Below are positions 59,683 to 61,137 of a stretch of 64,000 nucleotides of DNA, one piece after another; positions within the stretch are counted from its first letter, which is position 1, and each line of letters begins with the position of its first letter. Under the pieces are notes generated by a model. The model saw only the letters and a list, made by a program, of their open reading frames with translations. It was not told the DNA's origin and made no database searches. The stretch spans positions 1,928,501 through 1,992,500 of the forward strand of contig NZ_CP072842.1 of NCBI RefSeq assembly GCF_017948305.1. Reading direction: 5' to 3'. Both the position numbers and the translations under genes were made by a program. The stretch comes from Faecalibacter bovis. GTDB taxonomy: Bacteria > Bacteroidota > Bacteroidia > Flavobacteriales > Weeksellaceae.

Positions 59683-59919
59683 ATCCAAAAACTAAAATCT
59701 GTTGAACGATTTTTCTCTAAATTGCCTATTTATAAGGGTTTAACGATTGTTAAAGTTTCAATTTGAAGTACTCAAACGCATTGAAATCCTTGATTTGTTG
59801 TACCAATTGTTGTACCTTAGAATCACGTTACATTCGTTTGCATCAGCAAGTTACAAAAATATTTCACTTGTTTGCATTCGTTTAGAAAAGTAGATTTTTA
59901 ACCCATAATACAATTTCCA
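59683..59919. other. Region between the array and the recombinase gene
   Basis: 237 bases without a gene. TTGTTGTACC occurs twice (59795-59804 and 59807-59816, 12-base period). CATTCGTTTGCAT (59830) and GTTTGCATTCGTTT (59870) form a second near-repeat. Such sites could bind the recombinase (core and arm sites) and would be the place of an attI-like site. No clear promoter was found. Confidence 0.5.
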
Positions 59920-61137
59920 ATGGCTTCAATCAAATTAGTACTTCGCACCAACCAAGAAGATAAAACAGGACACAGTCCATTGTATATCCGATTAATCAAG
60001 GATCGTAAAACAAAGTTTATAGCAACTGGAGTAAAGTTGAAAGAAAACGAATGGGATGATGTCAAACAAAAAGTAAAACGCAATTATCCCAATTCAACGA
60101 GAATGAATGCTTTCTTATCTCAAAAGATAGCAGATGCAGAAGCAATGGTTGCCGATAACGAGCGTAAGCGTGGAAATATCTCCGCTAAGCGATTAAAAGA
60201 AGCTATAAAAGGAAAAGATATTAAAAACTTTTTTGAGTACTCTTATGAGCGTTGTGAGCGTATTAAAGGTAGTGTATCACCAAGAACGTATAAGAATTAC
60301 AAAAACTATGTAAAGAAATTCGAGGAGTTTATCGGACATAACGAAATCTATTTTGATGACATCACAGTAACCACTTTAAATGATTATGTCAATTACCTAA
60401 GCAACAAACTAAAAAACGGAAATACTACAATTCGTTATTCATTGAACATTTTAGCCATAATGTTTAAAGATGCTATTCGTGAAGAGATCATCAATTTAAA
60501 TACCTATCCATTTGCGAGTGTACGAATCAAAAAAGACAAGAGTACAAGACTGTTTTTAAACAAAGAACAAATCGAGCAGCTAAAAAATCACAAGAGTTCA
60601 TTTGGTCAAACAGATACGTATTTCAGAGATATGTTTATTTTTTCTTGTTATGCCGGAGGATTGCGTTTTAGTGATGTCGTTACCTTACAATGGAAAAACT
60701 ATGATGAAAACGAACAACGTATCAGATTAAACATCCGTAAAACTAAACGTTCACATCAATTCAAGGTAGGTCAATCTGCTTTAGAGATTTTAAACAAATA
60801 CAAAAAAGAAACTTCCGAACCAGATGATTTTATTTTTCCAATCATTTCAGAAGCTAATTTCTTCGAACAATCCAACGAATACCAACTAAAAGTAATCGGT
60901 AGCAAAAATGTTTTATGTGGTCAGAAATTGCGTAGAATGGGCAAAGAATTAGAATTTCCATTCTCATTATCTTTTCATTTAAGCCGACATACATTTGCAA
61001 CCCAAGCCTTAGCTAACGGTATGCGTATTGAGTACGTTTCTAAACTTTTAGATCATTCAGATATCGGAACAACACAAATCTATGCGAAAATCGTCAACGA
61101 AGAATTAGACAAAGCGGTTGAGCAATACATTGAATAA
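59920..61137 (+). CDS. Tyrosine recombinase (Bacteroidota arm-binding type)
   Basis: A 405-residue site-specific recombinase. Residues 1-90 form an arm-DNA-binding domain (KLVLRTNQEDKTGHSPLYIR), residues about 105-205 a SAM-like core-binding domain, and the rest the catalytic domain: AGGLRFSDVVTLQW (R), RKTKRSHQFKV (K), HLSRHTFATQ (H-x-x-R), LLDHSDIGTTQIYAKI (H and the Tyr nucleophile). Enzymes of this type move conjugative elements and genomic islands. The gene starts 238 bases from the last repeat and points away from the cassettes, as intI does in integrons, but the extra arm domain speaks against classical IntI. Confidence 0.92.
   Translation: MASIKLVLRTNQEDKTGHSPLYIRLIKDRKTKFIATGVKLKENEWDDVKQKVKRNYPNSTRMNAFLSQKIADAEAMVADNERKRGNISAKRLKEAIKGKDIKNFFEYSYERCERIKGSVSPRTYKNYKNYVKKFEEFIGHNEIYFDDITVTTLNDYVNYLSNKLKNGNTTIRYSLNILAIMFKDAIREEIINLNTYPFASVRIKKDKSTRLFLNKEQIEQLKNHKSSFGQTDTYFRDMFIFSCYAGGLRFSDVVTLQWKNYDENEQRIRLNIRKTKRSHQFKVGQSALEILNKYKKETSEPDDFIFPIISEANFFEQSNEYQLKVIGSKNVLCGQKLRRMGKELEFPFSLSFHLSRHTFATQALANGMRIEYVSKLLDHSDIGTTQIYAKIVNEELDKAVEQYIE

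Follow-up and report, generated by a model that had tools for sequence, protein, structure and literature searches.

The DNA analysed here (the window) is a stretch of 64,000 nucleotides that corresponds to C1:1928501-1992500 of the 2.835-Mb genome of Faecalibacter bovis (G000). Towards its right-hand end lies an array of gene cassettes separated by repeats that resemble the attC sites of integrons, and beyond the last of these repeats in the window lies a tyrosine recombinase gene (59920-61137). The relation of this gene to the array is the subject of this analysis. The attC-like sites were located with a detector of AAC..GTT inverted repeats (hairpins), run with controls, and by BLAST with a copy of the repeat. 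The features of the array and of the recombinase region are as follows, with the basis of each in brackets.

52464..52645, minus strand: attC-like site, the first of the part of the array inside the window (detector and BLAST)
53134..53217, minus strand: attC-like site, a short form of 84 nucleotides (detector; cassette end match to its neighbour 7/8)
53655..53854, minus strand: attC-like site (BLAST match; missed by the hairpin detector)
54406..54585, minus strand: attC-like site whose fold has R''/R' and stem base-paired, the spacer being unequal and unpaired (detector and fold)
55221..55409, minus strand: attC-like site (detector)
56020..56200, minus strand: attC-like site (detector; end match 7/8)
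56922..57104, minus strand: attC-like site (detector; end match 7/8)
57721..57906, minus strand: attC-like site (first version of the detector)
58703..58889, minus strand: attC-like site (detector)
59498..59682, minus strand: attC-like site, a stem-loop with R'' intact, apparently entered by an island at its R' (G^TT) end (detector, stem score 14.4)
59672..59684, plus strand: left copy of the 13-bp direct repeat AATACGATGTTAT, the putative attL core (right copy at C1:2015943-2015955, outside the window)
59795..59816, plus strand: paired TTGTTGTACC with copies at 59795 and 59807, 12 bases apart, proposed arm-type sites of the island integrase (sequence)
59836..59877, plus strand: a second pair of short direct repeats, GTTTGCAT, at 59836 and 59870 (sequence)
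59920..61137, plus strand: tyrosine recombinase of 405 amino acids, the presumed island integrase (open reading frame (ORF) and Pfam domains)

The last attC-like repeat of the window closes with GTT at 59680-59682, and 238 bases separate this GTT from the start of the recombinase gene. The cassette ORFs lie on the minus strand and the recombinase gene is directed away from them. A preliminary description of the window had remarked on this spacing and orientation, which the ORF and repeat coordinates bear out, and on two pairs of short direct repeats in between, which are the TTGTTGTACC and GTTTGCAT pairs.

The cassettes are mostly single-gene, and about 37 sites were detected in the array of this genome. 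Reverse complementarity, usually in 7 of 8 positions, links the bases that follow the G of GTT with those before the AAC of the next site. A cassette end match of at least 6 of 8 bases was found in 21 of 36 neighbouring pairs of sites, compared with 85 of 1296 non-neighbouring pairs; the array exceeds chance. A BLAST search of the whole genome with the repeat copy revealed further copies, all on the same strand, at C1:2016533-2041972. The preliminary description had the recombinase at the end of the array, but the array resumes past an insert of 28 kb. A degenerate attC-like repeat fragment at 50740-50790, separated from the array by an IS30-like transposase gene (51399-52397), suggests that the array formerly reached further.

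The insert is an island of 27.8 kb between the last attC-like site of the window and the resumed array. Its left end reads gccAATACGATGTTATccaaa and its right end ggatAATACGATGTTATgtgtag. Direct repeats bound it on both sides, its integrase gene begins 238 bases from the left core, close to that end, and its empty site can be restored. The repeat AATACGATGTTAT spans the closing GTT, and with it the G^TT crossover, of the attC-like site. At the left junction, TTATCC gives a cassette end match of merely 2/8, and no matching R'' was found. The right junction, at C1:2015943, reads taATACGATGTTATgtgtag and restores the match, with TTATGTGTAG pairing with the R'' TACACATAAC of the next site (C1:2016552). 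Since the left junction breaks the cassette rule and the right junction restores it, the island entered at the cassette crossover, splitting one cassette boundary. The original cassette (ORF C1:2015964-2016602) is intact between the right boundary and the next attC, and the attC without the island is expected to read GCCAATACGATGTTATGTGTAG. On the plus strand of the island, TTGTTGTAC occurs solely at 1988295, 1988307 and 2015861, that is, at both island ends, and a related TTGTTGTACC pair lies near the right end at C1:2015861-2015881; the TTGTTGTAC pairs may thus be arm-type sites. The earlier suggestion that TTGTTGTACC may bind the enzyme gains indirect support from this recurrence at both ends and from the fixed position of the motif in relatives.

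The recombinase itself resembles phage-type enzymes. An arm-binding N-terminal domain had been proposed, and Pfam recognises it as Arm-DNA-bind_5, together with a SAM-like domain (Phage_int_SAM_5) and the catalytic domain (Phage_integrase). Residues R249, H353/R356, H379 and Y388 are invariant among 12 relatives. The NCBIfam integron integrase model TIGR02249 gives only 64 bits compared with a cut-off of 265, in agreement with the preliminary assignment of the enzyme as non-IntI. It is not a canonical IntI; the IntI-specific domain around patch III is apparently lacking. The predicted structure matches XerA, Tn1549 integrase and lambda integrase (predicted template modelling score, pTM, ~0.5; moderate model confidence). 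A second copy of the 3' end of the gene, 57 nucleotides long and 86% identical, lies on the plus strand at 61807-61863, behind a toxin-antitoxin pair, and is possibly the remnant of an older integrase gene; a similar copy is also visible in a related island of genome G028.

It is very likely that the recombinase serves as integrase to an integrative island of 27.8 kb, that this enzyme joined the attachment site of the island to the attC-like site at 59498-59682, and that the array belongs to another recombinase, labelled IntX here. Both junctions, their common core, the arm-like repeats, the restored end match and a like anatomy in most relatives can be read from the sequences. The integrase would recombine the attachment site of the island with the attC-like site, exchanging strands within TGTT, at or beside the G^TT cassette-joining point. 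The outcome would be AATACGATGTTAT at both ends and paired TTGTTGTAC arm-type sites inside each end. The protein itself presumably carries out this recombination, and the island can probably leave again.

The anatomy of this locus recurs. A scan of the family and a scan of named genomes provided 101 distinct relatives of the recombinase, of which 99 are evaluable. Their layout is fixed, with the arm pair at -125 (or about -69) and a GTT 115 bases further upstream. Such a GTT is present in 91 of the 99 loci; 50 of the 91 form the end of an AAC..GTT hairpin with a stem score of at least 10.4, whereas among control GTTs taken from these loci only 3 of 728 do so. The TTGTTGTACC pair is found at -125 in most relatives, and the motif is also conserved at the right ends. 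About eight further relatives are inserted in attI-like sites, and in three genomes (G078, G161 and G027) IntX lies divergently, about 0.4 kb from the insertion. Right junctions were located in seven genomes (G000, G028, G238, G161, G027, G175 and G011). Outside G000, the match with the neighbouring cassette is restored in 5/5 checkable cases, comprising three attC sites (G028, G238 and G011) and two attI sites (G161 and G027). Mismatches between left and right cores limit strand exchange to TGTT. Among L181-L219, with the core at about -240 or -185, arm and core are always 115 nucleotides apart, while the spacing of arm and gene start varies (about -69 or -125), which favours arm sites over promoter parts.

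An integrase that recognises folded single-stranded attC hairpins in the manner of IntI, and that could also act on cassettes, is an improbable alternative. Hairpin sites do dominate among the targets, and the crossover is the same as in IntI-type recombination. However, attI sites, which do not fold, are used with equal precision, which argues against a hairpin requirement, and the L' and R' boxes alone supply a double-stranded core. The domains and fold match arm-binding phage-type integrases, and the structure model has no obvious extra feature that might bind hairpins. It is most likely that the island enzyme binds the paired arm sites and that the exchange involves ordinary double-stranded DNA, either of attI or of the L'-R' core of attC.

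A chance landing at the array by an island indifferent to attC is very improbable, although some relatives occupy non-attC sites (L082, L083, L095-L099, L140 and L144). In 50 of 91 relatives the end falls exactly on the GTT that closes an attC hairpin, far beyond the controls, and for three of those in attI-like sites IntX is no more than 0.5 kb away. The island entered at the crossover base itself, not just somewhere in the array. The attC stems vary by genus, and sampling bias would need to account for independent attC stems in Weeksellaceae, Flavobacteriaceae and Sphingobacteriaceae. Targets inside arrays with matched cassette ends are also found in other genera, namely Polaribacter (L207), Olleya (L216), Tenacibaculum (L217) and Flavobacterium cauense (L171). 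In a tree of 101 rows made by a quick method, attC and attI use is spread across most of the recombinase family. The preliminary description had allowed for the chance insertion of an island at the edge of the array. The island itself is borne out; the edge is not, as the site is inside the array, and neither is the accident, as the clade recurrently uses the attC/attI crossover. These elements appear to constitute a Bacteroidota island family whose integrase uses integron attC and attI as landing sites, not a chance landing.

Several observations weigh against the reading of the gene as the integrase of an attC-directed island. One close relative (92%), in E. falsenii (L140/L072), lies away from any recognisable attC, as do L144 and a ferredoxin-linked group (L095-L097). 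Two or three subclades use sites other than attC, namely TATACAAGTTATC in Flavobacterium, the ferredoxin-linked site of L095-L097, and that of L082/L083. About 18 members from Flavobacteriaceae, mostly Flavobacterium, are located at the common motif TATACAAGTTATC. Eighteen cases with only the right half of an attC were assigned by eye, and the statistics do not depend on them. The part of the island ORFs that was scanned contained no recognisable relaxase, type IV secretion or conjugation gene. Finally, the whole account of recombination is read from finished sequences.

The Flavobacterium-type motif, ..CGCCTATATACAA-GTTATC, lies about 240 nucleotides upstream of the recombinase (L182, L184, L187, L189, L196-L198, L203 and L209) and is often preceded by an inverted repeat of about 85 nucleotides. 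The possibility that TATACAAGTTATC is an attI in Flavobacterium was considered and rejected; an IntX-like gene adjoins it only in L182 and L204, in the other orientation, and these loci form a separate class. In genome G073, an island occupies attI in reversed orientation, with ACTCAAATATACG copies 34 kb apart (L078 at C1:2124881, and C1:2158706). No plasmid-borne relatives of the recombinase were found at E <= 1e-100.

The recombinase is present in 33 of the 246 genomes of the family. IntX is present in 24 of these 33 genomes and in 44 of the 213 without the recombinase (Fisher p = 7e-9), so the link of this clade to arrays in other genomes, which had been proposed as a check, does exist. The co-occurrence is attributable to targeting, given that 44 IntX genomes have no such recombinase.

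IntX is encoded beyond the resumed array, 55 kb downstream and outside the window, at C1:2043425-2044489 (L039:15426-16490). It is an XerA-like protein of 354 amino acids that has about 75 additional residues forming an N-terminal domain and, as IntI does, ends in SPLDRL. The nearest sequences are XerA-like proteins, followed by VchIntIA (2A3V). The alignment skips from 262 to 280 in IntX while 2A3V runs from 185 to 246, leaving about 43 residues absent, which indicates that the IntI-specific region is missing. TIGR02249 gives 188.6 bits compared with the cut-off of 265. The predicted structure matches XerA and 2A3V (pTM ~0.5; moderate model confidence). An attI-like AACACTCAAATATACG lies 41-201 nucleotides upstream of IntX in most of 30 loci; the exact 16-mer has one copy in the whole F. 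bovis genome, at IntX, reading into the first cassette. In the IntX array, matched R''/R' ends and inverted-repeat stems occur together with an attI beside the integrase. Most of the 21 regions retrieved contain sites whose ends match. Strong matches to IntX occur in about 68 of the 246 genomes of the family, and relatives in 101 of 345 genomes sampled across the phylum at E <= 1e-70, the arrays having been tested in the own family only. No canonical IntI was found in 196 genomes of the order, a weak negative since no control genome matched either.

The presence of IntX bears on a third alternative, that the recombinase is the cassette integrase of the array, with a new platform and an attI in the preceding 238 bases. 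The divergent, array-adjacent geometry, the genome-wide link with IntX-type arrays and the fixed distance to attC in relatives all favour this possibility, which is nevertheless highly improbable. It was rejected after the whole-genome search, as the array continues past the recombinase and a second recombinase lies at the true head with a conserved attI-like AACACTCAAATATACG and a first cassette. In addition, no cassette starts at the supposed attI, the left junction lacks a matching R'', a second boundary has the same core and restores the cassette, and 44 of the 68 IntX genomes lack the recombinase. The new integron platform that the preliminary description considered for this recombinase is therefore not supported; there may well be a new kind of platform here, with IntX as its enzyme. 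Least probable of all is an insertion made by IntX with the island as a very large cassette: the stretch from the G^TT of one attC, where the island begins, to the next attC, 28.6 kb away, formally makes one unit, but the island has its own integrase and arm-like repeats and two direct-repeat boundaries, the second 0.6 kb before the next attC, with the original cassette intact in between.

The island carries a varied cargo, which begins inside the window with the following genes.

61190..61480, plus strand: Phd/YefM-type antitoxin
61481..61738, plus strand: YoeB-type toxin
61929..62258, plus strand: ArsR-type regulator, the start of an arsenic cluster that runs past the window
62318..62782, plus strand: DUF6428 protein of the arsenic cluster

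The arsenic cluster comprises ArsR, DUF6428, a monooxygenase, a phosphatase-like protein and an SBF-family transporter. The island also encodes a VapE/primase protein and a BREX phage-defence set of BrxF, BrxC, PglX, BrxHI, PglZ and BrxA. The related island of G028, from another genus and with a recombinase 98% identical, has both ends in common at about 94% identity but does not share the BREX genes. A conserved long inverted repeat of about 185 nucleotides in the island, TAATACGCCTATTTGCAAA...TTTGCAAATAGGCTTATTTC, is attC-like by shape (C1:2012194-2012378), and G028 has a counterpart at C9:853629-853807.

The left attC is nearly intact after insertion, and the island and the neighbouring cassette would form one formal giant cassette. 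If this reading is correct, an island inserted in attC joins a giant cassette that IntX might still move, and one in attI separates integrase and array, which would be an easy means of disconnecting an integron. Cassette arrays of Bacteroidota would also be places where large islands with defence and resistance genes settle. The island led to the true array head. The integron-like system there is common among Weeksellaceae, and its integrase is without the domain by which standard tools define integrons. It is somewhat probable that Weeksellaceae and related Bacteroidota harbor an unrecognised integron class, with an XerA-like IntX without the IntI-specific domain, its own attI and attC of 74-190 nucleotides, together with a dedicated island family specialised on its attC/attI crossover.

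No description of tyrosine-integrase islands specialised on attC, or of such arrays, was found in the open-licence literature; because the search was limited to open-licence papers, the novelty of tyrosine-integrase islands on attC is provisional. The IntI-specific domain has been called a defining characteristic of IntIs (PMC9668308). With IntegronFinder 2.0, Salinibacter ruber M1 was the one member of Bacteroidetes proper in which a complete integron was reported (PMC9024848), and a study of Elizabethkingia with IntegronFinder reported none in outbreak strains (PMC5458099). The IntX array agrees with canonical integrons (VchIntIA, 2A3V) in the matched R''/R' ends of its attC-like sites and in its recombinase, which is divergent and accompanied by an attI. 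Unlike canonical IntI, IntX lacks about 43 residues including the IntI-specific region and has an extra N-terminal domain of about 75 residues. The island recombinase differs from IntI in lying outside the integron platform.

Insertion sequences and group IIC introns specialised on attC are already known. The IS1111-attC insertion sequences (ISKpn4, ISPst6) are mobile elements specialised on cassette attC (PMC11187229). The island shares this specialisation, but they use a DEDD transposase and a seekRNA, whereas a tyrosine recombinase and a 28-kb island are found here. Group IIC-attC introns insert in attC with the consensus TTGT/T (PMC7923331), which is close to the TGTT of the island, but by RNA-based retrohoming on the attC bottom strand with an unrelated enzyme. 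In the architecture of its integrase (Arm-DNA-bind_5, SAM_5 and Phage_integrase), the direct repeats at both ends, the paired arm-type repeats and the tolerance of core mismatches outside a short crossover, the island resembles Bacteroidota integrative elements such as those of the CTnDOT and ICEEa1 types. ICEEa1 in Elizabethkingia uses TTTTT in mutY (PMC5458099). Unlike these elements, the island appears to have as its attachment site the attC/attI crossover of a cassette array.
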